Shown piece by piece: positions 9,080 to 25,088 of a DNA stretch of 25,088 nt. The translations under genes were made by a program, and so were the position numbers. Within the stretch, counting starts at the first letter, position 1, and every line of letters begins with the position of its first letter. The notes below the pieces were generated by a model that saw only the letters and a program-made list of their open reading frames with translations, had not been told where the DNA came from and made no database searches. This DNA comes from a virus, in IMG/VR virus record IMGVR_UViG_3300031565_000336, positions 1-25,088 of that record; one strand, given 5' to 3'.

Positions 9080-10615
9080 ATGGAAATCATTATAGACACG
9101 ACCACACGCAAACAGGTTTATTCTGACAACAGACCAGTGCGAGATGAAACCACGCAACTTACTTTCTACCCGTTCCAGGCGGGGAACTTAACTATCCTAT
9201 TCATGGACGGATCAAACAACCCTGTTGAGTTTCAGGCTGGCGTTGACACATTCAGTCTGGCAGTGGATAACGACTATGACCACACCGAATCTCTGTTGAT
9301 GTTCTCTGATGAGTTCACGATTGACGGGAACGCGGTTACATTCCAGATCAATACCTACACCGATGCTATTGCGGAACTACTTACCGATAACACGAGCGGT
9401 AAAGAGTCCGCTATTTTCGAGGTTCACCGATTCTCAGCCGGAGTTGAGAGCGTTATAGCGCAAGATACCTGCCACATTAAAAACGTGGTGCTCCATACAG
9501 AAGGTTCTCCGGTGACGACAGATCCTGAATACCGGACTGCTGCGGTACAGGATCTGCTTGACTCAACAAAAATGAGCAGGCTATCTGGCGCAACCCCAGG
9601 GTTCCTTCCGGTCATTGGTCCTGATGGGGAGCAGGTTGACGGGGTTGCCATTGATCCGGACACACTTGGTCCATCACAGGCGATGGTAGACAAGCTGGCC
9701 GCGATTGATGAGAACATAGCCGACCAGGCAGAAGCCGAAGCGGGAACCGATAATAGTAAGCGTATGACTCCGCTTACCGTGAAATATGCGGTTGACAAGT
9801 CCATTGACGAACACACACACGCAGTATCGGACGTTGCGAACCTTCAATCGGAACTGAATCTAAAAACCAACGTGGCTACGCATGCCTCAGATATCGCTGG
9901 ATTGATGCCAAAAATGGTTGGCGTACCAGAGGGCTATATTCCCTTGGTTGGTCCTGATGGATCGACGTTCAGCGGGTCTGTGGACCCCGACACACTTGGT
10001 GAGAATAATCCGGACACAGCAACTCAGGTAGAAATGGAGTCCGGAACAGAGGCAGCTCTTCGGAGTGTATCACCATTACTTATTGCCCAGGCTATCGCGG
10101 CACAGACCGCGGACGCCGGTCTATCTGAATCTGAGGTACAGGCATTGATTGACGCTGCCGGTACCGGAACCGGTTTGTCTACGGCTGATGTACAGACGTT
10201 GATTGACGCTGCCGGCGGACAGACCGAGGCTGAGGTACAGGCATTGATCGACGCTGCCGGCGGACAGACTGAGGCAGAAGTACAGGCATTGATTGACGCA
10301 GCAGTGGACGCCGGGGTAACTGTGCTCACCGGAGCTGCAAACCTTGTCGCTACGGATGCAGGCAAAACTCTGGAGCTCACAGACAACGCAGACCAGACGG
10401 TTACGATCCGGACGAACGCGGTTGAAGCCATCCCTGTAAACAAACAGTATGTGGTAACTGGTATTGGAACCGGTACAAAAATGATACTGGCCGCAGATGG
10501 CGTGCTCCTGAATGGTGTTGATGGTGGAAGTCAGTCCATAGCGGCGCAATGGCAGTCCGTCACCCTTCGTAAACGTGCAACAGATGAATGGATAATTGAG
10601 GGGGCTTTGGCATGA
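9080..10615 (+). CDS. Tail fibre protein with repeated modules
   Basis: A 511-residue acidic protein. The N-terminal 160 residues look like a BppU-type attachment domain (beta-rich, QAGNLTILFMDG). Then a module appears twice: GFLPVIGPDGE..DPDTLG near residue 175 and GYIPLVGPDGS..DPDTLG near 285, each followed by a Q-x-E-x-E-x-GT / PL....A segment common in phage fibres. Four EVQALIDAAG-type repeats follow at about 352-412. The last 100 residues form a small beta domain. It ends in an ATGA overlap with the LamG gene. It likely forms a trimeric fibre that presents the receptor-binding protein. Confidence 0.75.
   Translation: MEIIIDTTTRKQVYSDNRPVRDETTQLTFYPFQAGNLTILFMDGSNNPVEFQAGVDTFSLAVDNDYDHTESLLMFSDEFTIDGNAVTFQINTYTDAIAELLTDNTSGKESAIFEVHRFSAGVESVIAQDTCHIKNVVLHTEGSPVTTDPEYRTAAVQDLLDSTKMSRLSGATPGFLPVIGPDGEQVDGVAIDPDTLGPSQAMVDKLAAIDENIADQAEAEAGTDNSKRMTPLTVKYAVDKSIDEHTHAVSDVANLQSELNLKTNVATHASDIAGLMPKMVGVPEGYIPLVGPDGSTFSGSVDPDTLGENNPDTATQVEMESGTEAALRSVSPLLIAQAIAAQTADAGLSESEVQALIDAAGTGTGLSTADVQTLIDAAGGQTEAEVQALIDAAGGQTEAEVQALIDAAVDAGVTVLTGAANLVATDAGKTLELTDNADQTVTIRTNAVEAIPVNKQYVVTGIGTGTKMILAADGVLLNGVDGGSQSIAAQWQSVTLRKRATDEWIIEGALA
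10133..10315 (+). repeat. Four in-frame 45-bp-type repeats in the tail fibre gene
   Basis: Units begin at 10133, 10187, 10232 and 10277. The two middle units are 45 bp (15 codons, consensus EVQALIDAAGGQTEA); the first is 54 bp and the last is truncated to 39 bp. Nucleotide identity is high, which indicates recent unit duplication. The length may vary between isolates by recombination. Confidence 0.8.
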
Positions 10616-11361
10616 TCAGAATATCACGTAAAGCCGCACTTTTCGCCATCAGACCACGTGAACCAGTCACAGATCAAAATACTGTACTATTATTGCATTG
10701 TGATGGAACCAATGGGAGTATGGTATTTCCGGACTCAGCCCTGGCAGGTGATGCGCCACACACTATAACGCCATCAGGTAGTACTCAAGTCAGTACAGCC
10801 CAGAGTAAATTTGGCGGCTCCAGTGCACTGTTTAATGGCACTACGGACTATATGTCTATTGCGGACAGTCCGTCATGGGCGTTAGGATCTGATGATTTTA
10901 CGATTGAGATTCAGGTACGGTTTAATACGTTGGCAGTCAATCAGTATTTTATTACACAACGAACATCCGACGGGTCCAATCGTGCCTGGGGGCTGGCGCG
11001 TCAAAATCCGAATAAACTGGTATTTAATTACTCCACAAGTGCCGGCGTCAGTTGGACTGACGAGCACGTTGTTAGCTGGACTCCCGTTGTGGATACCTGG
11101 TATCACATCGCAGTTTGCCGGTCAGGTTCGAATTTACGTATTTTTGTTGACGGGACACAGGTTGGAGCAACGTATAACGCATCCACTGATACAATTATCG
11201 ATGTCACCGAAATGGTATCTATTGGCTGTAATTCTGCACCTGGAGGATCTGAGTATTTCGATGGGTATATGGATGAGATACGTATCTCAAATGGAAAAGC
11301 GAGGTATACCGCCAACTTTACGCCACCATCAACACCGTTTACACCTTACATAGGATCATGA
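10612..11361 (+). CDS. LamG/concanavalin-like domain protein, probable receptor-binding protein
   Basis: A 249-residue protein. Residues about 20-245 match a laminin G-like (Laminin_G_3) jelly roll: LLLHCDGTNGS, then FGGSSALFNGTTDYMSI, DFTIEIQVRF, WYHIAVCRSGSNLRIFVDGT and YFDGYMDEIRIS, ending in ARYTANFTPPS. Such domains bind glycans, and in phages they occur at fibre tips. The gene starts at the ATGA overlap with the fibre gene, with GAGGGGG upstream, so fibre and LamG protein are made together. Host-surface sugar binding is an inference from the fold. Confidence 0.8.
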   Translation: MIRISRKAALFAIRPREPVTDQNTVLLLHCDGTNGSMVFPDSALAGDAPHTITPSGSTQVSTAQSKFGGSSALFNGTTDYMSIADSPSWALGSDDFTIEIQVRFNTLAVNQYFITQRTSDGSNRAWGLARQNPNKLVFNYSTSAGVSWTDEHVVSWTPVVDTWYHIAVCRSGSNLRIFVDGTQVGATYNASTDTIIDVTEMVSIGCNSAPGGSEYFDGYMDEIRISNGKARYTANFTPPSTPFTPYIGS

Positions 11362-11438: not shown

Positions 11439-11644
11439 TGAAGGAGGCCATAGGGAATGGTCCGTATGCGGTCATAGCCATATATCTGATATGGCAAGGC
11501 CGGAAGGACTACGCAGGTGTCTGTTCTCGACTAAACAAGGTCGAAGACTATTGCAAAAACACCTTGCATAAGCAATTGGAACGTGCATCTACAGCTATCG
11601 AAAGATGCAACGGACTGATTGACAAGACCCTCGGAGGTAATTAG
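11420..11644 (+). CDS. Putative holin (BhlA/UviB-like)
   Basis: A 74-residue protein with one N-terminal hydrophobic segment (GPYAVIAIYLIW, residues 14-25) followed by a charged helical tail. This is the layout of the BhlA/UviB class of small holin-like proteins. It would sit in the inner membrane and take part in lysis. GGGGGG precedes the ATG. It is the last gene of the late block, where lysis genes are common, but no endolysin lies beside it. Its stop overlaps the convergent repressor gene by two bases. Confidence 0.55.
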   Translation: MSLEELMKEAIGNGPYAVIAIYLIWQGRKDYAGVCSRLNKVEDYCKNTLHKQLERASTAIERCNGLIDKTLGGN

Positions 11645-11964
11645 ACAGATTCCAATAATGTCGCAATGTACCTCCTTTGTTCGTCGGTTGGCAATTCGGC
11701 AAAATAAAGCGCAGTCATTCGAGCACATGATATAAGCAAGTCGATACGGAGCTTATCCCTCCCTTCGACTTGCTTTTTGTCCTTGTCAGCCTGTGCCATC
11801 ATCAGCATGATGTCGGGCACTTTCTTTTCAGGTATTGGATACTTCCCTGCCTCCCAATAGCTGACGATCGCCGGGCTTACATTTATAAGGCGTCCAAACT
11901 CCGATTGCGTTTCTTTTCGAAACTTTCTGAGACGTTTTAGGGCTCCAGGTGTGATGATGTCCAT
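11641..11964 (-). CDS. Cro/CI-type HTH repressor
   Basis: A 107-residue protein, the only clear gene on the minus strand. The N-terminal 65 residues form an XRE helix-turn-helix: ALKRLRKFRKETQSEFGRLI, then VSPAIVSYWEAGKYPIP. The C-terminal helices may dimerise; there is no LexA-like autoprotease. I chose the ATG at 11964, with AAGGAATATT upstream, over an upstream TTG-type extension. It faces away from the early genes across a 145-bp regulatory gap, the classic arrangement for a lysogeny repressor. This supports a temperate lifestyle. Confidence 0.82.
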   Translation of the reverse strand: MDIITPGALKRLRKFRKETQSEFGRLINVSPAIVSYWEAGKYPIPEKKVPDIMLMMAQADKDKKQVEGRDKLRIDLLISCARMTALYFAELPTDEQRRYIATLLESV

Positions 11965-11986
11965 AATATTCCTTTTTGATGTTTGA

Positions 11987-12017
11987 ATTATACTAATAGA
12001 ATGTAACACATTTTCAA
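11987..12017 (-). promoter_or_regulatory. Candidate promoter of the repressor gene
   Basis: On the minus strand TTGAAA (12017-12012) and a perfect TATAAT (11992-11987) are separated by 19 bases. The spacing is longer than ideal. The start would fall about 20 bases before the repressor ATG. A CAAG-TTTT-CTTG palindrome (12015-12026) overlaps the -35 box. Confidence 0.5.
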
Positions 12018-12109: not shown

Positions 12110-12379
12110 ATGGCCATGAAACTACTCTCAAATAGAAAGGATTTGAAAAGCGAATCCTTGAACCTGCGAATCACCAGCGGCGACAAACAGAAACTTACAG
12201 AAGTGGCGGAAAGTTATGGACTGCCTACAGGAACCCTGGTCGAAGCGCTATTAAACGGGGTTCTCGGAAAAATGGAAGGTGTGGAACCGCCGAGAAAACC
12301 GGCAGAAACCCCCTGCCAACGGAAAAAAGCAAAGAGGGATATTTTTGAATGGGTGTTCGGAGGGCTTATTCTGAAATGA
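12110..12379 (+). CDS. Ribbon-helix-helix-like regulator
   Basis: An 89-residue basic protein. Residues 15-55 (ESLNLRITSGDKQKLTEVAE, then LPTGTLVEALL) have the strand-helix-helix pattern of Arc/MetJ DNA-binding proteins. The rest is a Lys/Pro-rich tail. It is the first gene right of the repressor, in the position of a cro-like or early regulator. AAGGAA lies about ten bases before the ATG. A second ATG two codons on is an alternative start. It overlaps the next gene. Confidence 0.65.
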   Translation: MAMKLLSNRKDLKSESLNLRITSGDKQKLTEVAESYGLPTGTLVEALLNGVLGKMEGVEPPRKPAETPCQRKKAKRDIFEWVFGGLILK

Positions 12380-12999
12380 AATGTTACGGTTCATATTCCA
12401 TCAGGAAAAAGCTTTGCGCCAGTTGCGATCTAGCGGAATGGTGCAAAGACGCGGCAGACACTAAACTGTCAACGTGTGGGCTCTTTGAAGATTGGCGGAG
12501 TCCCGATGTCATCAAAGAGCAATCGGAGTCATTGGACGCAGCAAAAACACTTGCGGAGCTCCTGAGTTTGATAGTGAACGCAGAGCATCAAAAAAGAATG
12601 TCACACCTGTTAATGGAGATATTGAGCCTAAATGCTGTCAGGTTTCAGATTATCACAAAACGTTTGATATCACCGCAAGCAAATTGGTGCGATATCGCAA
12701 GGGAAGTCGGGTGTAGTCGCCAACTTGTATCGTACCATGTGGGGGAAATGCGCAAAGAACACCCGTTGATAATGCAGGTATTGCCTGGTTTCGATGACGA
12801 TACGGCCACCGAACAGACGACACTTGGGGAGCGTATCCGGATCAGGCGCAAATCTCGTAATTTGACTCAACGGGAGTTGGCGAACAAAGCCGGGATAAGC
12901 ATTAGATCCTTACAGCGGTTGGAACGGGGAGATTCTGAAAACAACAAACTCGCGGCCGCACTGATTCACGTTTTAGCGCAAAAGAAGAAAAGCGTATAA
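12376..12999 (+). CDS. Cys-cluster plus XRE helix-turn-helix regulator
   Basis: A 207-residue three-part protein. Residues 3-34 hold five cysteines (3, 14, 17, 23, 34), with CASC and EWC, suggesting a metal-binding knuckle. The middle has a separate HTH-like segment (DIAREVGCSRQLVSYHVGEM). The C-terminal part is an XRE domain (TLGERIRIRRKSRNLTQREL, AGISIRSLQRLERG). The ATG at 12376 overlaps the previous stop as ATGA; ATG 12349, in frame, has a better-spaced AGGGA and would add nine residues. A transcriptional switch role is inferred. Confidence 0.65.
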   Translation: MKCYGSYSIRKKLCASCDLAEWCKDAADTKLSTCGLFEDWRSPDVIKEQSESLDAAKTLAELLSLIVNAEHQKRMSHLLMEILSLNAVRFQIITKRLISPQANWCDIAREVGCSRQLVSYHVGEMRKEHPLIMQVLPGFDDDTATEQTTLGERIRIRRKSRNLTQRELANKAGISIRSLQRLERGDSENNKLAAALIHVLAQKKKSV

Positions 13000-13056
13000 A
13001 AACAGATAAAGGTCTACTTTTTACGGTTGTTTAATTTTGACAGTTTGTTTATAGGT

Positions 13057-13533
13057 ATGATTGACGTACTTGAACAATTAGGTGTTCCGGAATCGGATCG
13101 GAAGGCGGTAGTTGCGAAACTTGACGTGCTGAATGTCAAACAAGCCAAATTCGTTGCGCATTACGTGAGCACAGGTAAAAAAATGGCTTCTGCACTGGCC
13201 GCAGGATACCGCGAGGGCGCTGCCTCAACCAAATTGATGAAAAATCCGAAAGTAACGGACGCTATCAACTTGTTAAAAGCGTCCATTACAGGCGCAATTA
13301 TCGCACCATTTGCGCGTATTGCATTGGAACTCGTTGAAGAGTACGACAAAGATCATTCAGGCAAGGGAAACAAATTTATCCAGGTTGAAACAATCTCAAC
13401 CCCTACCGGAAAAACAATCAAGGAAAAAACGCCGGATAAAATGAAGGTCATCAAAGCCATAATCGAACTGGCAAAAGAAACGTCAACCGATCAAAAACAC
13501 GATGAAATTACCGTCATTCTTCCGAAAGTATAA
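13057..13533 (+). CDS. Small terminase subunit-like protein 1
   Basis: A 158-residue protein from ATG 13057; a TTG at 13027 would add ten residues, and neither start has a good SD. The segment NVKQAKFVAHYVSTGKKMAS, followed by ALAAGYREGAASTKLMKNPK, matches the N-terminal DNA-binding domain of Terminase_2-type small subunits (the ...FV..Y...A..AAGY...A....KNPKV pattern). The C-terminal part is helical with a Lys-rich end. It lies far from the large terminase gene. A second TerS-like gene is at 15281, so which one serves packaging is open. Confidence 0.62.
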   Translation: MIDVLEQLGVPESDRKAVVAKLDVLNVKQAKFVAHYVSTGKKMASALAAGYREGAASTKLMKNPKVTDAINLLKASITGAIIAPFARIALELVEEYDKDHSGKGNKFIQVETISTPTGKTIKEKTPDKMKVIKAIIELAKETSTDQKHDEITVILPKV

Positions 13534-16503: not shown

Positions 16504-16527
16504 CCCCGGTCGCTAGCCGGGGTTTTT
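16504..16527 (+). terminator. Strong rho-independent terminator
   Basis: CCCCGG (16504-16509) and CCGGGG (16517-16522) form a GC-only stem followed by TTTTTC TTTT. It isolates the replication module from upstream transcription. A near-identical copy in the opposite orientation lies at 18561-18587. Confidence 0.85.
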
Positions 16528-16653: not shown

Positions 16654-16773
16654 GGGGTGACCAGTGTCATACCACCGGCCAGCCTCAATAAGGGGTGACC
16701 AGTGTCATACCGGAACCGGCCGAAAAGGGGGAGGGTGACCAGTGTCATACCATGGGGTGACCAGTGTCATACC
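16654..16773 (+). repeat. Iteron array, four direct copies (candidate plasmid-type origin)
   Basis: The 19-mer GGGTGACCAGTGTCATACC occurs without mismatch at about 16655-16673, 16693-16711, 16733-16751 and 16755-16773. Three copies have an extra leading G. Copy starts are about 38, 40 and 22 bp apart, so neighbouring sites lie roughly on the same helix face for the close pair. Each contains the small inverted repeat TGAC-CAGT-GTCA. Direct repeats just upstream of a RepA gene are the hallmark of iteron-controlled plasmid origins, where RepA binds for initiation and copy control. Confidence 0.88.
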
Positions 16774-16783
16774 ATGAGCATAC

Positions 16784-16812
16784 TTGAAACCGTCGTATTT
16801 TAGACACATAAT
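16784..16812 (+). promoter_or_regulatory. repA promoter
   Basis: TTGAAA (16784-16789) and CATAAT (16807-16812) are separated by exactly 17 bases. The -35 box begins ten bases after the last iteron, so RepA bound to the iterons could regulate its own promoter, as in iteron plasmids. Confidence 0.65.
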
Positions 16813-16841
16813 AGGGGAGTACAAAACCAACCCGAGAGGTC

Positions 16842-17678
16842 ATGGCCATGAAAAACGATAGAGTATCCACGTTCCGCCGATTGTTGGGTGAGCCTGATCC
16901 TGCACAAAGGGACGCGGTCGGGTTCAGCTCGATACTGCTTTTAATGGCCTTGCCGTATAAAAAACCGGTTACCCCTGTCTATGTGCGGAAATTGGGGAAA
17001 GATCGCGGCAGGCTTATCCTTGACCCGTACAAGGAGGTTGATGACGAGGGTAATGTGATGGCGATGTATTTTCCCTATGGTGCCGTTCCACGCCTGGCAT
17101 TGATTTACATCTGGACGCAGGTGAAGCGGACCGGACAGAAACGGGTTAACCTTGGCAATTCCCTTTATTCGTTCCTTGAATCCATCGGATACACGCAGGA
17201 AAGCAGGAACTACAAACGGGTGCGGAACCAACTGGTATGGTTGTTCGGTAGTCAAATCAGATGGACCTATGCCGGAAATGGCCTACAGGCAGGCCGGATT
17301 GCGGCCATAGCGCATGAATATGCACTATGGTGGTCAAAAGATTGCACGGAGGGCCTATTCGATTCCTACGTTGTGATTACCGATGAACTGTTCAACCATA
17401 TCCAGTTCCATGCATGGCCGGTTGATCTGGACGTGTTGAAGGGGATTCACCGGAACACGTTGGCGATTGATCTTTACCTATGGTTGACCTATCGCGGCAA
17501 CGGTTCCCGCCGTTCCATCACATGGAACGAGCTGCAAGCTCAGTTCGGGAACTACAGCAACGCAAAAGCATTGAAACGGAAGGCGAAGATTGCACTTGCC
17601 GATATCAACCGCTTTTGCCCTACCCTACGAACAACATTAATCAAAGGCGGTTTCTCATGGCAGACTCAAATCCGATAG
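16842..17678 (+). CDS. repA: Plasmid-type replication initiator RepA (PF04796-like)
   Basis: A 278-residue basic protein that would bind the iterons and start replication. The core motif is FPYGAVPRLALIYIWTQ (77-93), followed by RVNLGNSLYSFLESIGY (101-117). It matches the YG-x-(I/L)-PRLLL...T.A.RT....L.LG.SL..F...LG pattern of plasmid-encoded RepA proteins (PF04796). A later YLWLTYR and a winged-helix-like end fit the same family. GAGAGG lies two bases before ATG 16842 and eight before ATG 16848, so the second ATG may be used. The gene overlaps the next by 22 bases. Finding this family inside a tailed-phage genome is the key hint of a phage-plasmid. Confidence 0.85.
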   Translation: MAMKNDRVSTFRRLLGEPDPAQRDAVGFSSILLLMALPYKKPVTPVYVRKLGKDRGRLILDPYKEVDDEGNVMAMYFPYGAVPRLALIYIWTQVKRTGQKRVNLGNSLYSFLESIGYTQESRNYKRVRNQLVWLFGSQIRWTYAGNGLQAGRIAAIAHEYALWWSKDCTEGLFDSYVVITDELFNHIQFHAWPVDLDVLKGIHRNTLAIDLYLWLTYRGNGSRRSITWNELQAQFGNYSNAKALKRKAKIALADINRFCPTLRTTLIKGGFSWQTQIR

Positions 17679-17893
17679 CATGTCCTACTTGCGGTGGATC
17701 CGGTTTCACTGGCGGAGCTCCGATCTGGAACAACGGGGAATGGAATACTTGTGAATGTCTTGGGGATTGTGAGTGTCAGACGTGGGCACGAACCGATATG
17801 ATGATTGCCGATTTGGAAAAACCGCCGACGCATCACCCGAAATGCATGGAAAAACTGCCGAAACATCACCCAAACATCACCCAAATATGTTGA
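17657..17893 (+). CDS. Small Cys/His-rich protein
   Basis: A 78-residue protein starting inside the end of repA, with AGGCGG six bases before the ATG. It opens with CPTCGGSGF, a DnaJ-type CxxCxGxG knuckle, followed by CECLGDCEC and a PPTHHPKC..HHPN tail rich in His, Pro and Lys. A zinc-bound fold is likely. Coupling to repA suggests a role in replication or copy control, but this is inference. The same knuckle type occurs in the protein at 14552. Confidence 0.6.
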   Translation: MADSNPIACPTCGGSGFTGGAPIWNNGEWNTCECLGDCECQTWARTDMMIADLEKPPTHHPKCMEKLPKHHPNITQIC

Positions 17894-17906
17894 ACCACAC
17901 CCGAGG

Positions 17907-18163
17907 ACCACACAACTACTACACCTGGTACCACAGGGTAAATATATGATCTATAAGTGTTTAACCCTATTTGTGGTAGTGTGGTAGCAAAAAAGGGGGG
18001 GGGTCCCTATATAGAAAAAAAAAATAATATTTTTAAATAATCCTTTCTTTTCTTTTTTTTTCTATATAAACATTAGACTTTTACTACCACACTACCACAA
18101 AAGATATAAGTAAGTAAAAGTAAAGGGTTTAAAGTGTGGTACCGGGTGTAGTAGTTGTGTAGT
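17907..18163. repeat. Nested 257-bp interrupted palindrome
   Basis: Three pairs of arms are nested around a centre near 18038: 17907-17935 with 18135-18163 (27 of 29 match), 17970-17987 with 18084-18101 (18 of 18), and 18008-18023 with 18053-18068 (16 of 16). A short AACCCT/AGGGTT pair lies between the outer and middle arms. The arms repeat ACCACA/TGTGGT units and GGTACC. The centre carries runs of nine G, ten A and nine T. Such a structure can extrude a cruciform or fold as ssDNA; an origin, a primase loading site or a partition site are candidates. No gene is visible in it. Confidence 0.8.
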
Positions 18164-18355
18164 AGTTGTTGTGGTACCCAAAAAATTACGAAAAATCGAA
18201 AATTATTTTCCCCTCGTCAAAAAACCGTCCCCGATGGAACGTTTTTGGGCGGATTTTGCGACCAGGACAGTACCGGACGAAATATGTATATTTGTGTCAT
18301 GTGTATAAGAGAAAAGTATGTACATTCCTGCCGTTCGATCAATTTCTTTGTTCTC

Positions 18356-18402
18356 AGATTAATTTACAAACCTTGTAAAGATTAATTTACAAAACTTGTA
18401 AA
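18356..18402. promoter_or_regulatory. Tandem 23-bp repeat with two TTTACAA-N3-TTGTAAA operators
   Basis: Two 23-bp units at 18356-18378 and 18379-18401 differ at one base. Each holds a perfect palindrome TTTACAA-N3-TTGTAAA (18363-18379 and 18386-18402). They lie about 100 bp before the primase gene, and a related site occurs after it at 21192. They look like binding sites for a dimeric regulator of the replication operon. Confidence 0.7.
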
Positions 18403-18427
18403 GGAAATATTAGTATATTCTTATTCA

Positions 18428-18465
18428 TATCGTTGATATTAAACAAGTTACGCTATTCAACGATA
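18428..18465. repeat. 9-bp inverted repeat before the primase gene
   Basis: TATCGTTGA (18428-18436) and TCAACGATA (18457-18465) are perfect complements with a 20-base spacer. They lie 34 bases before ATG 18499. It could be a leader hairpin or a split operator. Confidence 0.45.
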
Positions 18466-18498
18466 GGAAATAAGTGTATAAGGTTCTGAAGATTAAGT

Positions 18499-21189
18499 AT
18501 GCTTGACAACGTTTTAAGTAGTGAGTATACTGATGATAACGGAAGCCTGAAAAGGTGGAAAAAGAAAAACCCCGGCAGCGGCCGGGGTCAAAGTCAAAAC
18601 CTAACTAAAGATAAACCAATGAGCAAAAAAGTCAAACCGATAGCCTTCGGAAAAAGCGTCTCTTCAAAAACTCCCACAGTAGATCACAAAGAAATCACCT
18701 TCTCTCAGTTCTGCGAAATGTTCCGGGAACCCGGTAGATTGAACGTAACCGGTGAAGAATATTGGAAGTTGGGCAAGAAAGAACAGGGTGAATTGAAAGT
18801 AAAGGCATCAGGGAAAAGCGGTTATTGGACGCCTTGCAACTTCAAAAAACCTTTAAGGCGAAAAAACAATGCGGATAAGGTCCAGCTGGTCAATCTGGAT
18901 ATTGACACCGGAGAATTTGCCGGGAGCTTCGATCCGGCCACACTGGCGGACTCGTTGAAAGGTTTCTCATGGATGATCCATACAACTGCCAGCCATACCG
19001 TACAGGATCCCCGGTACCATGTGTTGGTTGATGCTGACGGGACCATTGAACCGCTTAAATACGCGGCATGTGTGGCGACACTCTCAAAGTTGATCGGTAT
19101 GCCTCCAGGACAGGTGACAAAAGAATCCTTCACCGTGTGCCAAGCCATGTTCATGCCTGTCATACCACAGGGCGCTGAGTATCTATTCGATTCCTGCGAC
19201 ACCGGCCGGCCATTTACAGCCGACGACATCTGTATGGATGCCCTTGAAGCGGTTCAACAGGCCACACTCAATAAGAAGCGCACCAATGGTGCAAAACCGC
19301 TCATGGCACCGCAAACGGTTGACGATGACCCTTTTGAATCCGCTATCAGTAGAACACCTGCGGATGAAAGTCCGGAACGGATCAAATCAGCATTGGATTC
19401 AATAGATCCGGATGGTGATCGGGAACAGTGGTACATTATCGCCGGATGTTTGAAGCATCAGTTTCAAGGCGATCCGGAATCTGGATTTCAGATGTTCCAT
19501 GATTGGAGTGCAACAGGGGAAAAGTATGTTGATGAGCAGGATTGCCGCAAACAGTGGGACCATGAAAAAGCGAATCCGGAAGATAAAGAGCCTGTCCGAA
19601 TCGCCACATTATTCGGGATGGCACGTGACGCCGGTTGGAATGAAAAGGCAACTCTCGAAGCGCGTATCGAATCCGTAGAAAGTTTGGAAGCTATGGAGTC
19701 AATTTACCTTGAACTCAAAAAGGCGAAGCTCGGAAGAGCGGTAAGGAATCACCTGTATAGGGCGATCAAGCAACGGCTGAAAGCTATCGGCCATGAATCG
19801 ACAATTCCGAAAATTCGCTTTGCATGCCAACCTGAAATAGCCGAAGCTGATTATGCATGGTTGGAAGATTGGATATTCGTGGAAGATAGCGACCCATACT
19901 ACCGGCAAGTATCCATTGACACTGTTGAACAGTCCACCGGCATACATCTCCGGGGTGCGATGAAAGTAAAGAAATTCAACGAAGCTTTCGGACATTTGTG
20001 CCCTCCTAACGACGAAGGAAAATGCATTTCCCCGCATGATGCCGCGGCAAGGCAGGGTATACCGCGTGTAGCGAGTGAGATCTATCATACAGGACTCGAA
20101 CCGGGATTATGCCTATATCAAGGCATGGAACGGTTCAACAGGTATCAATCCCCGACCGTTAAACCTGATCCGGCGCAACTGGATAAGGCAACCAGGCTAT
20201 TAGACCAGTTGCTGCTTAACCTATCCCCTTGTAAAGATGAACGGGATATGTTAATGAACTGGTTGGCATGTTTGGTACAACACCCTGAAATCCGTTTCAA
20301 TTGGGCACCAATACTGCAAGGCATACAGGGAACCGGTAAAGGATTCATCCACAAGCTCCTATCCAGTTTGTTAGGGAAAAGGCAGGTGGAATTTTTGGGT
20401 ACTCAAACATTAAAGGACAATTTTAATGGATGGGTTGGCAGTTGCCAGGTTGCATTCGTCGATGAAATCAAGATTTCAGGTGAGGGCAAATATGATGCAC
20501 TGGACAAACTCAAAGGGTACATTGGAAATGATCAGGTGAGAGTTCGGAAAATGCACACCGATTCAGTCGAAGTTGAAAATTTCATGTCCTTCATATTTAC
20601 CACTAACTATCATGATGCCATTCCAATAAATGACGGTGATCGCAGGTATTACCCCATATTCTCCGGGATGACAATCCCAGAACGTAATACACCGAAAATG
20701 AAAAACTTTTTCATTGATTTACACAGTGAAAAAACCTTGTCTGAATTGCTGCCTGCCTACATGCATATTCTGATGAATCACGCAATTCCGGCGGAGTTTG
20801 ACCCGAAAGGTTGCGCGCCTGATTCAGAATCCCGAAAACATTTGATCGAAGGCTCAAAAGATAGCCTCACCAATGCAATAGAGGACGCTATAGAAAACAC
20901 TGAAATTCCATTGGTTGGCGATGTCGTTTTGAGTATAAGGGCATTGCATGACTACCTTGAAAGCGAAGGGTTTAAGAAAAACAATGCTGTTTCAAAATAC
21001 TTGAATGACATGGGTTGGGAAAAAGCAATCGACCCAAAGGGCGGAGCACTCAAGAAAAGCATACGGCACCAATCTATCGGCTCTCGCAAACACCACCTAT
21101 GGGTCAACCGGGGAAAATTGGGTGCATGTGATCCCCTTGAGATATTCGAAAAAATGTGCCAAGATTCGGAGAGCAATGGCGAGCTGTAA
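18499..21189 (+). CDS. Primase-polymerase/helicase (NrS-1 type, with PriCT-2 and DUF5906-like domains)
   Basis: An 896-residue replication protein. Residues about 60-235 look like an archaeo-eukaryotic primase core: NLDID (D134, D136), TASH (165-166) and YHVLVD (D178) are in the expected order for the three catalytic motifs. Residues about 280-385 resemble PriCT-2 (ALDSIDPDGDREQWYIIAG). The C-terminal half is a superfamily 3-like helicase: Walker A GIQGTGKG (608-615), Walker B AFVDE (652-656), and FIFTTN further on. Nitratiruptor phage NrS-1 polymerase has the same order and makes DNA without separate primase. The true start may be ATG 18619, since the first 40 residues are low-complexity and contain a terminator-like hairpin. 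Confidence 0.8.
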   Translation: MLDNVLSSEYTDDNGSLKRWKKKNPGSGRGQSQNLTKDKPMSKKVKPIAFGKSVSSKTPTVDHKEITFSQFCEMFREPGRLNVTGEEYWKLGKKEQGELKVKASGKSGYWTPCNFKKPLRRKNNADKVQLVNLDIDTGEFAGSFDPATLADSLKGFSWMIHTTASHTVQDPRYHVLVDADGTIEPLKYAACVATLSKLIGMPPGQVTKESFTVCQAMFMPVIPQGAEYLFDSCDTGRPFTADDICMDALEAVQQATLNKKRTNGAKPLMAPQTVDDDPFESAISRTPADESPERIKSALDSIDPDGDREQWYIIAGCLKHQFQGDPESGFQMFHDWSATGEKYVDEQDCRKQWDHEKANPEDKEPVRIATLFGMARDAGWNEKATLEARIESVESLEAMESIYLELKKAKLGRAVRNHLYRAIKQRLKAIGHESTIPKIRFACQPEIAEADYAWLEDWIFVEDSDPYYRQVSIDTVEQSTGIHLRGAMKVKKFNEAFGHLCPPNDEGKCISPHDAAARQGIPRVASEIYHTGLEPGLCLYQGMERFNRYQSPTVKPDPAQLDKATRLLDQLLLNLSPCKDERDMLMNWLACLVQHPEIRFNWAPILQGIQGTGKGFIHKLLSSLLGKRQVEFLGTQTLKDNFNGWVGSCQVAFVDEIKISGEGKYDALDKLKGYIGNDQVRVRKMHTDSVEVENFMSFIFTTNYHDAIPINDGDRRYYPIFSGMTIPERNTPKMKNFFIDLHSEKTLSELLPAYMHILMNHAIPAEFDPKGCAPDSESRKHLIEGSKDSLTNAIEDAIENTEIPLVGDVVLSIRALHDYLESEGFKKNNAVSKYLNDMGWEKAIDPKGGALKKSIRHQSIGSRKHHLWVNRGKLGACDPLEIFEKMCQDSESNGEL
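18561..18587 (-). terminator. Terminator-like hairpin on the minus strand, inside the primase 5' end
   Basis: CCCCGGC (18570-18576) pairs with GCCGGGG (18581-18587). Read on the minus strand the stem is followed by TTTTTCTTT. It is an inverted near-copy of the terminator at 16504. If the primase starts at 18619 the hairpin is simply upstream of the gene. Confidence 0.65.
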
Positions 21190-21191
21190 AA

Positions 21192-21208
21192 TTTACGGAT
21201 CTTGTAAA
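21192..21208. promoter_or_regulatory. Third TTTAC...TTGTAAA site
   Basis: TTTACGGATCTTGTAAA matches the two operators at 18363 and 18386 at all outer positions; only inner bases differ. It starts two bases after the primase stop and overlaps the terminator that follows. It may place the downstream part of the operon under the same regulator. Confidence 0.5.
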
Positions 21209-21230
21209 GGTGGCATAATGCCACCTTATT
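21207..21230 (+). terminator. Terminator hairpin after the primase gene
   Basis: AAGGTGGCA (21207-21215) and TGCCACCTT (21219-21227) pair perfectly with a three-base loop; TTATTTATACCCTTTTTT follows. The T-run is interrupted, so termination may be partial, leaving some read-through into 21267. Confidence 0.7.
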
Positions 21231-21266
21231 TATACCCTTTTTTAACACGAATAATGAGCTGAAATC

Positions 21267-21824
21267 ATGAAAAAAGAACCATTCCCTGAAGGGATTACGA
21301 CGATGACCGGACAAACCAAGGTCGGGCTATCCTACCTGACAATGCAATTGGCTGATAGGATGCACAGGGGACAACCTACCCTGATGGGACAGGTGATCCC
21401 TTGTGGGCACATCATGTATATCACGCATATGGCAAAACCGGCGGTTGACCGTAGACGCTACAAGCTTGATTTGGACTGGTTACACCCTGTAGAAAGTGCG
21501 TATTTTATCACAACATTAGATCAGCCGGTGATTGATGCAATAGAGGATAATATTAACGGGTTGCCGTCCCCTTCCACGTTACCGGTTACCGTATTTCTAG
21601 ACTTATACACACCCCCTTCCATGTGGAAAGTGTTGAACGCTTTTTCTCTGAAATACGGGTTGCGAATCATTGCGTCACATTGCAAGGTAGGAAAAAACAA
21701 ATTTGTGAAACAACGAATGGTTTTGAATACTGATGGTGTACTTACGATCGAATGGGATGTACGCATAATCGCCTGGGAAACCTTAAAACTGAAGAAAACA
21801 GGTATCGGAGGCTTTGTATTATGA
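21267..21824 (+). CDS. RecA/AAA_25-like protein with defective Walker A
   Basis: A 185-residue protein resembling the RepA/AAA_25 group of RecA-fold ATPases found beside plasmid and phage primases: TMTGQTKVGLSYLTMQLADR, a HIMYITHMA strand, RRRYKL, a VTVFLDLYTP Walker B-like strand (D112), and LRIIASH. At the Walker A position GxxxxGK(S/T), the conserved Lys is Leu21, so it probably cannot hydrolyse ATP. It is short for the family. It may act as a structural partner of the primase-helicase. The start ATG has a weak SD; the gene ends in an ATGA overlap with the next. Confidence 0.6.
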   Translation: MKKEPFPEGITTMTGQTKVGLSYLTMQLADRMHRGQPTLMGQVIPCGHIMYITHMAKPAVDRRRYKLDLDWLHPVESAYFITTLDQPVIDAIEDNINGLPSPSTLPVTVFLDLYTPPSMWKVLNAFSLKYGLRIIASHCKVGKNKFVKQRMVLNTDGVLTIEWDVRIIAWETLKLKKTGIGGFVL

Positions 21825-22096
21825 CCTTGAAGAAAAACTATAAAACCTTCAACCGACGACGAAATCCGGCGGATTACACCCAGCAAAAATTCGGTGACTG
21901 GTTTTCATTGAAGCTAAAAGGCGCAGACGCGGACAAGGTCAAAAGAACAGATTTGGTGAAATACCTGTCAAAAGAATTGGGCCGGAAAATAACACACACA
22001 ATGGTTCGGGCGTGGTACAGGGGAATTGATATGCCCAAATATATGCACCGGTTCGTTGATTTTGAGTTATTATTCTGTATTGATGATCTGGATTGA
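21821..22096 (+). CDS. Small basic HTH-like protein
   Basis: A 91-residue, very basic N-terminus (KKNYKTFNRRR) followed by helices with an HTH-like pattern (DLVKYLSKELGRKITHTMVR, then AWYRGIDMPKYM). It starts at the ATGA overlap, with GGAGG nine bases upstream; an upstream in-frame TTG start is unlikely. DNA binding in replication or copy control is suggested by position at the end of the replication block. No specific family recognised. Confidence 0.58.
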   Translation: MTLKKNYKTFNRRRNPADYTQQKFGDWFSLKLKGADADKVKRTDLVKYLSKELGRKITHTMVRAWYRGIDMPKYMHRFVDFELLFCIDDLD

Positions 22097-22193: not shown

Positions 22194-22219
22194 TATTAGC
22201 ACCAAGTTTTTCCCCTTTT

Positions 22220-22297
22220 AATGTCAATATTGTACATGTTTTTCGACTAATCGCTTATAGGCGGTTGACCAGATAATGTCAATATTGTACATGTTTT
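22220..22297 (+). repeat. Two 23-bp identical direct repeats before the terminase gene
   Basis: The same 23 bases occur at 22220-22242 and 22275-22297, 55 bp apart; the core is TGTCAATATTGTACATG, nearly palindromic around AATATT. The second copy ends 18 bases before the terminase ATG. TGTACA recalls the TGTATACA sites at 13734 and 13787. They may be operators for the late operon or part of a packaging site. Confidence 0.65.
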
Positions 22298-22315: not shown

Positions 22316-23620
22316 ATGTCAACCATTGATCTATCAAATCGCGGCCTATACAATGAAGCCTATATCCCGATTATCCCCTGTAGGGATGAAACAATCATCT
22401 TATACGGTGGCCGGGATAGTGCCAAAAGCTACACTGCGGCTCAATTGGTGTTGATACGTATGTTGCAGGAGCTGTATTGCAAGGTAATATGTCTACGTAA
22501 AATCTATGCAGACATAAAAGATTCTCAGTTTTCAGCCTTATTAAAAGTCGTCGATTCGTGGGGTTTGCAAAGCCGATTCAAACATACTACGTCACCCTTG
22601 GCAATGAACACCCCCGGCAGAAAAAGCACGTTGATTGCGCGTGGACTTGACCGGGAAGCCAAAACAAAATCAATTGATGACCCTACAATACTTTGGATTG
22701 AAGAGGCAAACGAAATTACAGAGGATGACTACCTCACCGCCATCACCTCACTTAGATCATCAGTACCAGGCGCGTTGATTCAAACCATAATCACGTTCAA
22801 CCCTGAGAACGAGTCTAATTGGATCAACCGTCGATTCTTCCCGGACAAGGAAACCTATGAAGCAGTGGAGGGGGATTTTCATTTTGTGCAGTCCACACAA
22901 CCGAATACAACAATTCTGCATACCACGTACAAAGACAATCGGTATGTAGGGGAAAACCGTCGCCGAATATATGAGAACCTGAAGAATAGCCCGGACAGGA
23001 ATTATTATCGTGTATGGTGCCTTGGTCTTTGGGGAAATACTTTGAAGGGCTTGGTGTTTCCGGACGTCGAATTCGTTAACGAATTCCCCCCTGAAACGGA
23101 ATGGGATGAATCAGGATACGGGCTGGATTATGGATTCACCAATGATCCAACGTCTTTGGTAAAAGGCGTCATTGTCGGACAGGATATCTATTTGCAGGAC
23201 CTCATTTATGCGTGTGGGCTTGTCAACACCGGGAAGGCATCACCGAGCATTGAAACCGAATTCAAAAAGCTGGGCATTTCAAAACGTGCCCGAATATGTG
23301 CGGATGGATCGGAACCGAAATCATGTAAGGAATTGAGAAATTTAGGGTATGCGGTCAAATCTGCAACGAAAGGCAAGGGCAGTGTGGAAGCAGGCATTTC
23401 CGGACTGAGACAATACAACATACATATCGTCGGGGATTCTCCCGGTTTGAAGTTGGAACAGTCAAACTACAAGTATGCCATTGACCGGAATGGGGATCCG
23501 ACCAATAAGCCGATCGACAAATACAACCACGCATGGGACGCGGCAAGATATTTTCTGTCCGGGATAGCAGATAAAAAAGTCTATGCACTGGATTTCGCCC
23601 ATTTTGATACAGAAGATTAA
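22316..23620 (+). CDS. terL: Terminase large subunit (PBSX family)
   Basis: A 434-residue packaging motor. Walker A is GGRDSAKS (31-38), with Ala in place of the usual second Gly. Walker B is ILWIEE (125-130). An FNPENESNWI coupling segment is near 161-170. The RNase H-like nuclease has D271 (GYGLDYGF), D330 (ARICADGS) and D408 (YNHAWDAARY), all in family order. It starts the structural operon. There is no recognisable SD before ATG 22316. The paired TerS would be one of the small proteins at 13057 or 15281, far away. Confidence 0.92.
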   Translation: MSTIDLSNRGLYNEAYIPIIPCRDETIILYGGRDSAKSYTAAQLVLIRMLQELYCKVICLRKIYADIKDSQFSALLKVVDSWGLQSRFKHTTSPLAMNTPGRKSTLIARGLDREAKTKSIDDPTILWIEEANEITEDDYLTAITSLRSSVPGALIQTIITFNPENESNWINRRFFPDKETYEAVEGDFHFVQSTQPNTTILHTTYKDNRYVGENRRRIYENLKNSPDRNYYRVWCLGLWGNTLKGLVFPDVEFVNEFPPETEWDESGYGLDYGFTNDPTSLVKGVIVGQDIYLQDLIYACGLVNTGKASPSIETEFKKLGISKRARICADGSEPKSCKELRNLGYAVKSATKGKGSVEAGISGLRQYNIHIVGDSPGLKLEQSNYKYAIDRNGDPTNKPIDKYNHAWDAARYFLSGIADKKVYALDFAHFDTED

Positions 23621-23643
23621 TTTTGACACTTCCCCCTGTTAAT

Positions 23644-24732
23644 ATGAGCACGATATTTAACAATTTTTTTCCTGGCATACTCAAAAAATGGTCACGGACG
23701 CGAGACGGTAAGGATTCAGAAATACAAAGCGGTCAACAGACCAGCACCATACCTAATAACCTTTCACCGTCTCGCGTTACGTCCATTCAATCACTGGCCG
23801 ATACCGGATCCGCTTCCGATCAGGCCAGATACATTCTTGCTATGCAGGACAGCGATCCAATCTTGTCGGCACATATCCAGACGCGGAAACTTGCCGTTCA
23901 AAGTTGCCAATGGATTATCGAAAATGAAAATCCGGAAACGGCCGGCGCCTTGACCGATCGCATGAAAAAGCTCGGAATCAATGCGTTGATCAGCCATCTA
24001 CTCGACGCCATCCCGACGGGGTACGCGGGCGCACTACAGTACTGGAATTCTGAGGGTGTTTCAAAATGGGCCATGGAACACCCTTCTCAATTTTCCTTTA
24101 ATTCAGCGGGCAAACCAATTGTCCGATCTCAGATGGGAACCGGGGTGGAGCTTTTCGGCGAGTTCGAAGCTGGAACCATGATTCTGTATACCCCTTCAAG
24201 TAAACCCGGCATACCCTCAACACAAGGGTTGGGACGGGTACTCATGACAACATGGTTAAGAAAACAAATCGCTCAAATGCACTTAAACCGATTCCTTGAA
24301 AAATTCGGATCCCCCTTCCGCCACATTAAAATGTCGAACGAATCATACAACGACATTAAAATAAGGGAAGGCGTATGTATGGCAGCAAGGCGCATGGGGA
24401 ACGACGGGTTCGCAGTGACCAGTGAGGACACCGAAATAGAATTTACCTCTCAAAGTCAAGAAGGCGCGGATTCATACTTCACCCAGATTCAACAATGTGA
24501 CAATGCCTATGCGCTGACTTTGCTTGGTCAACTTGCCAGCTCCGGGGAGGCTTCCGGAATGTCAAATGGCCAGATGCAGGAAAATGTCAGAAATGACATC
24601 AGAGACGCTGATTGCCAGGGACTCACGGAGTGTTTAACACTTCAGGTATTGCACCCTCTCGAACACTTCTTATTTGGTACAACAGATTCAACCTTCACAC
24701 TAAAATCAAAACAGGGGATGGCTGATGCTTGA
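23644..24732 (+). CDS. Portal protein, Mu gp29-like (DUF935)
   Basis: A 362-residue portal. Matches to the DUF935 family include LAMQDSDPILSAHIQTRKLA, then SCQWIIE, then GYAGALQYW, and the C-terminal QGLTECLTLQVLHPLEHFLF. It is shorter than Mu gp29 (about 512 residues). I took ATG 23644, although TTG 23623 would add seven residues; no SD is visible for either. The upstream bases resemble those before the terminase ATG. The gene overlaps the protease start by eight bases. The Mu F-like (gp30) head morphogenesis gene usually found next is absent. Confidence 0.87.
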   Translation: MSTIFNNFFPGILKKWSRTRDGKDSEIQSGQQTSTIPNNLSPSRVTSIQSLADTGSASDQARYILAMQDSDPILSAHIQTRKLAVQSCQWIIENENPETAGALTDRMKKLGINALISHLLDAIPTGYAGALQYWNSEGVSKWAMEHPSQFSFNSAGKPIVRSQMGTGVELFGEFEAGTMILYTPSSKPGIPSTQGLGRVLMTTWLRKQIAQMHLNRFLEKFGSPFRHIKMSNESYNDIKIREGVCMAARRMGNDGFAVTSEDTEIEFTSQSQEGADSYFTQIQQCDNAYALTLLGQLASSGEASGMSNGQMQENVRNDIRDADCQGLTECLTLQVLHPLEHFLFGTTDSTFTLKSKQGMADA

Positions 24733-25088
24733 TCCATCGCGGTATGTCACTTTTGCAGACGGGGAAATCGATTCTGATGTTTCCAAAATTTTGCTTGCAC
24801 CATTCGGTAACGTTCGTGTTACCAAAGGAGGTAAACAAATCGAGTACACATTTTCCGAAGCTGACGCTGACGCATGCATTGAAGAATTTACAGAACGCGG
24901 AAAAGAAGTGGTAATTGATTTCGAACATAAAACGCTTTCCGGCGAAGAAGCGCCCGCGGCAGGTTGGATTTCAGAAATTTTCAAAACAACTGACGGCATG
25001 TTTGCCAAGGTAGCGTCCTGGACTGATAAGGCAAAAGGCTACCTTAAAAACCGGGAATACCGGTATTTCTCCCCTGTTTTCACGCTAT
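24725..25088 (+). CDS. Mu gpI-like capsid maturation protease (N-terminal part, continues at base 1)
   Basis: This is the start of the gene that continues at window base 2. ATG 24725 overlaps the portal stop by eight bases. The N-terminus (RYVTFADGEIDSDVSKILLAPF-like, then KGGKQIEYTFSEADAD) is typical of Mu protease I proteins. It runs to the window end without a stop and overlaps the first copy over the 212-base duplicated ends. Confidence 0.88.
   Translation, partial: MLDPSRYVTFADGEIDSDVSKILLAPFGNVRVTKGGKQIEYTFSEADADACIEEFTERGKEVVIDFEHKTLSGEEAPAAGWISEIFKTTDGMFAKVASWTDKAKGYLKNREYRYFSPVFTL
24877..25088 (+). repeat. Terminal direct repeat, right copy (circular overlap)
   Basis: Duplicate of 1-212 with G24962 in place of A86. 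See the left copy. Here the protease motif reads AAGW, as in relatives. Confidence 0.95.

Follow-up and report, generated by a model that had tools for sequence, protein, structure and literature searches.

A probable small phage-plasmid that combines a Mu-type head with an iteron replicon and a primase-helicase

We analysed the whole of virus record IMGVR_UViG_3300031565_000336, a window of 25,088 bases, and consider it likely that the record represents a small temperate phage-plasmid with two replicons that is kept as an episome in its host. This reading draws on the sequence and on analogy with related elements. A plasmid replication origin lies beside the element's own primase-helicase gene, so the phage probably lives as a small plasmid and is not inserted in the chromosome. 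Its head genes are of the Mu type, a combination with a PF04796 replicon that was seen in no other record examined.

The window begins and ends with a 212-bp direct repeat (positions 1-212 and 24877-25088) that differs at one position (211/212). From a terminal repeat this close to identity we strongly infer a circular genome of about 24,876 bp, most likely that of a complete or nearly complete phage. The circularity claimed by the first-pass annotation is upheld by the repeat, although the mismatch keeps the case from being perfect. All called genes but one lie on the plus strand, and an Rfam scan gave zero matches. It is highly improbable that the record is a chimera in which metagenome assembly fused a phage to a plasmid. 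The imperfect repeat would fit such an artefact, as would a single record with no near relative in any collection, but neighbouring genes overlap in a continuous order and GC skew is smooth and of a single direction across the window. The layout of a RepA_C gene joined to phage genes is moreover repeated in other circular records and in a closed isolate plasmid, described below.

The first replicon centres on a RepA replication initiator of 278 aa, encoded at 16842-17678 on the plus strand. An HMM search of this gene matched PF04796 (RepA_C) over residues 78-219 with an E-value of 5.3e-20 and 72.9 bits, against a curated cut-off of 26 bits. In a six-frame search the same family matched the window at 2.6e-22 and none of 14 control genomes. 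Directly upstream of repA are four perfect copies of a 19-bp iteron, GGGTGACCAGTGTCATACC, at 16655, 16693, 16733 and 16755, with a spacing of 22-40 bp. No such array arose in 100 shuffled sequences, even allowing three mismatches. A plasmid RepA with iterons, as proposed earlier, is therefore well founded on both the profile score and the repeats, and the refuting condition named with that proposal, a RepA that does not match PF04796, did not hold. The array (16655-16773, plus strand), located by repeat search, is a candidate plasmid origin; similar arrays accompany repA in related plasmids and phages, including several RepA_C plasmids from other bacteria, and the exact 19-bp iteron was absent from the other viral contigs scanned. 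A promoter-like site (TTGAAA-17-CATAAT, 16784-16812, plus strand), identified by consensus match only, occupies the gap between the iterons and repA. Upstream, an intrinsic-terminator-like hairpin at 16504-16522 on the plus strand might shield the repA unit from upstream transcription, a weak suggestion given that the consensus scan found 8 such hairpins in the region against 6.1 expected. The nearest relatives of RepA are plasmid proteins, from Paraburkholderia pPT70 (38%) and Rhodothermus plasmids (31-33%). A shallow fold model of RepA, examined for a RepE-like tandem winged-helix fold, has low confidence (pLDDT 55.7), and although its best PDB matches include the iteron initiators RctB and RepE54, these Foldseek matches have E-values above 0.001.

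Downstream of repA, an 896-aa ORF (18499-21189, plus strand) encodes an NrS-1-like primase-helicase with a putative AEP domain, a PriCT_2 domain and an SF3-type DUF5906 domain. Pfam matches are to PriCT_2 (PF08707; 3.2e-14, 53.5 bits against a cut-off of 22), DUF5906 (2.3e-19) and a VapE-like family (4.3e-7). Residues 541-728 match PDB entries 6k9c and 6k9e ('Primase') at 8e-14, which we take to be the helicase part of NrS-1 polymerase; the PriCT_2 and SF3-type helicase parts of that polymerase align with the window protein. The ORF shares an LDID motif with the homologue L038 and has no AEP family match in Pfam. The ORF is thus probably an AEP-type primase-helicase, as first annotated, with two domains above threshold, a sequence match to PDB entries and a putative AEP catalytic domain. 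The L038 homologue begins at a position that corresponds to residue 41, and the best promoter-like site sits within the first codons of the annotated ORF, so translation may in fact begin at 18619.

Between repA and the primase gene lies a 257-bp concentric interrupted palindrome with an AT-rich core (17907-18163), formed by inverted repeats I1 and I4. Folded as single-stranded DNA it has a z score of -9.87, and none of 200 shuffles was equally stable. We regard this palindrome as a candidate second, lytic origin. Between it and the primase gene are two 17-bp palindromes, TTTACAA-N3-TTGTAAA (18363-18402), at which primase expression may be controlled. The motif recurs in degenerate form at 21192, and a search of the immunity region found no more copies.

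These elements could alternatively form a single replicon, in which RepA both marks and melts one origin that serves all replication, and the primase-helicase has no task there beyond priming and unwinding; the palindrome would then be a transcript structure or a packaging or recombination site, and the phage could be lytic or temperate. We consider this arrangement unlikely. It would suit the adjacency of the repA and primase genes on one strand. No conserved copy of the palindrome was found elsewhere when relatives were folded on a coarse grid. Phages of the AH2/FoX4 type nevertheless have homologous primase-helicases (overall identity to the window protein 23-25%), and RepA_C is almost absent from deposited phages, which together indicate that such a primase usually needs no RepA of this kind. 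To our knowledge, no phage of the AH2/FoX4 or NrS-1 type carries a plasmid RepA. Iteron plasmid initiators also generally work with host replication proteins, which again argues against a single replicon.

The two-replicon reading leads to a specific life cycle. In the lysogen, the HTH repressor would silence the late genes while RepA would bind the four iterons, giving a low, self-limited copy number through iteron handcuffing and repA autoregulation. On induction, the primase-helicase would drive high-level replication from a second origin that it opens, for which the 257-bp palindrome just ahead of its gene is the likeliest candidate. The PBSX-type terminase would package the resulting concatemers or circles into a tailed particle with a Mu-type head. 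By analogy, RepA and the iterons would thus serve maintenance and the primase-polymerase lytic growth; RepA could instead serve lytic growth. The analogy is with P1, which uses oriR and RepA for maintenance and another initiator for lytic growth. Like the window, P1 combines a plasmid RepA/iteron origin with a separate lytic replication function, but its genome is about four times larger and carries partition and addiction genes.

A probable phage repressor with an HTH domain is encoded at 11641-12009, the sole gene called on the minus strand. The earlier assignment as a phage repressor gains from matches to PHROG regulators, but the HTH_3 score of 20.5 bits is just under the cut-off of 23. 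This gene points away from a second regulator region, across a 100-bp gap of 23% GC, in a layout that looks like an immunity switch. A Cro/activator-like HTH_3 regulator is encoded at 12349-12999 on the plus strand, its 34.4 bits exceeding the cut-off. Downstream of the primase gene, the plus strand carries a possible degenerate RecA-like ATPase (21267-21824), with a weak AAA_25 match of 14.5 bits that is under the cut-off, and a 114-aa ORF (21752-22096) that matches no family at threshold.

Functions for integration and partition were sought throughout the window. Six-frame searches gave zero matches to tyrosine integrase (PF00589), the rve transposase domain of MuA (PF00665), serine resolvase (PF00239) and ParA (PF13614), and the ORFs scanned contained no Pfam matches of integrase, rve, resolvase, ParA or MuB-like type. 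The first-pass annotation saw no integrase, transposase or partition gene, and these searches agree. No toxin-antitoxin system was found at threshold; a RelB-like match of 13.4 bits falls under the cut-off. With no ParA, toxin-antitoxin or lysis gene recognised, stable maintenance and lysis are left unexplained.

The virion and packaging genes, all on the plus strand, run across the ends of the record. A PBSX-type terminase large subunit (22316-23620; TIGR01547, 136.6 bits against a cut-off of 105, and PF04466) is followed by a 369-aa Mu-type portal (23623-24732; PF06074, Portal_Mu, 3e-48) and a 314-aa Mu-type head protease (PF10123), which starts at 24725, runs to 25088 and continues at 1-793 over the terminal repeat. 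The Mu-like_Pro profile matches the part of the protease at 2-790 with an E-value of 8.6e-49. Next come a putative head cement protein (798-1157), whose PF22758 score of 14.9 bits is under the cut-off and whose position is as in Mu-like phages, a Mu gpT-type major head protein (1186-2064; PF10124, 1.1e-32; 30% to Mushuvirus) and a Mu gp36-type head-tail protein (2123-2518; PF07030, 3.2e-17). The terminase small subunit is encoded separately at 13027-13533 (PF03592, 6.9e-7; phrog_51, 1.5e-11). These profile matches confirm the Mu-like virion genes and the PBSX-type terminase noted at first reading. The protease gene directly follows the portal gene, without a gpF head morphogenesis gene between them, and the tail-like genes downstream of the head genes are mostly unrecognised by profiles. 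The mismatch between the terminal repeats falls within the protease gene, at position 86, where A/G produces a Ser/Gly change; it may reflect population variation.

Scans of the ORFs recognised neither a lysin or holin gene nor one of the Mu gpF type. Together with the small genome (24.9 kb) and a portal of 369 aa compared with about 520 aa in Mushuvirus, this would be expected of a helper-dependent or decaying relic, a RepA-replicating plasmid that yields no infectious particles alone. We judge such a relic improbable, since the terminase, portal, protease, capsid and tail-like genes form a run that is open throughout, in canonical order and with intact frames, and since tail genes of novel phages often go unrecognised.

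A scan with a RepA alignment identified 16 IMG/VR records with RepA_C relatives, one of them a closed plasmid from an isolate. ParA is present in 11 of the 16 and a tyrosine integrase in 4, and plasmids or chromids may be among the largest records. In most of those examined, repA has a neighbouring array of 3-6 repeat copies. Where their virions could be typed, they are podovirus-like, contractile-tailed or of the P22-portal kind, with further terminase and portal families. Five circular phage records (G014, G015, G017, G020 and G023) share the PF04796 RepA with the window and have exact terminal repeats; none of the RepA_C relatives has a true Mu-type portal. G015 was considered as a second Mu-type case and rejected, its portal fitting PF04860 far better (1.4e-43 vs 3.6e-12). 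It is a 55-kb circular phage whose cargo comprises a histidine kinase, a response regulator and a cyclodipeptide synthase. G023, a 41-kb circular phage with RepA_C, two Rep_3 initiators and a PriCT_2 primase, resembles the window in joining RepA_C with such a primase.

The closed isolate plasmid (G019) is unnamed3 of the cultured strain Cupriavidus oxalaticus X32 (NZ_CP038638.1; 37,950 bp), which encodes RepA, ParAB, an S24 repressor, TerL, portal, capsid, sheath and holin. As in the window, a PF04796 RepA with an array beside its gene is combined with a repressor and terminase, portal, capsid and tail genes, and PF00589 is absent. Unlike the window, it has a contractile tail, a different portal and capsid, ParAB, recognised lysis genes and a size of 38 kb. 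This plasmid shows that PF04796 phage-plasmids are real and are maintained as plasmids. Episomal lysogeny of the window phage is likely because its PF04796 kin include this closed plasmid and phages with circular-type terminal repeats and arrays beside repA. The temperate episome proposed in the first-pass annotation accordingly holds for the plasmid replicon and the lack of recognised integration genes, while the episomal state itself is argued from these kin. Closer relatives did not emerge: when viral contigs were scanned with one protein at a time, RepA, the primase and the major head protein returned no relatives, those with the terminase and portal returned distant fragments only, and a scan of a genome collection returned a single distant terminase and nothing else.

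The head module has its own set of comparisons. Mu-like transposable phages (Mushuvirus, Alteromonadaceae phage B23 and Pelagibaca vB_PeaS-P1) share the order TerL-portal-protease-cement-gpT-gp36 with the window, but they have transposition and gpF-type genes, whereas the window lacks both and has a PBSX TerL. Salinibacter phage M31CC-1 (Kryptosalinivirus) also has a gp29/gpT Mu-type head and no annotated transposase; it differs in carrying a tyrosine integrase and a family B polymerase, and no RepA is annotated within 36 of its 53.8 kb. Head modules move between replication modules. The pairing was at first called unusual, and in one respect this needs narrowing, since M31CC-1 shows that a Mu-type head without transposition is known; a PF04796 replicon with a Mu-type head was not found elsewhere, and text searches of the open-licence literature turned up no report of a plasmid RepA together with a Mu-type head. 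Tentatively, a Mu-type virion lineage may have dropped transposition and stacked a PF04796 iteron replicon for the episomal state and an NrS-1-like primase-polymerase replicon with a palindromic origin for lytic growth, in 25 kb and with no partition genes.

Phage-plasmids are a recognised class (PMC11652158), and a survey lists 4,395 phage-plasmid-like elements in IMG/VR (PMC13221032). Roseobacter phage-plasmids combine ParAB and a P4-family primase with varied virion modules on one backbone (PMC10090143), a precedent, by analogy, for a modular reading of the window. Phage-plasmids, PF04796 ones included, and Mu-type heads without transposition are therefore already known; what appears to be new is the Mu-type head with a PF04796 replicon, and the 257-bp palindrome. 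PF04796 initiators, regarded as plasmid genes, recur as the replicon of phages whose virions differ widely. Among 50,697 deposited phage records, RepA_C relatives occur in one, a 3.9-kb fragment, and contigs that match PF04796 or other plasmid Rep families are removed as plasmid contamination by at least one virome pipeline (PMC8481466), a step that would take out phages like this one. Counts of the class are therefore probably too low. As a compact case, the window would allow the parts that two replication modules play in maintenance and in lytic growth to be told apart by experiment.

Several smaller features accompany the virion genes. Two identical 24-bp direct repeats, TAATGTCAATATTGTACATGTTTT, at 22219-22242 and 22274-22297 lie just upstream of the terminase gene and are possible binding sites of a late regulator. 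Where the major head protein gene gives way to that of gp36, an inverted repeat (2071-2111) with perfect 18-bp arms and a 5-nt loop is probably a terminator. Repeats of 45-54 bp at 10108-10305, inside a putative tail fibre gene, encode protein repeats of 15-18 residues (EAEVQALIDAAGGQT). Downstream of the fibre gene, a gene for a Laminin G/concanavalin A-like lectin (10612-11361) possibly encodes a receptor-binding or decoration protein.
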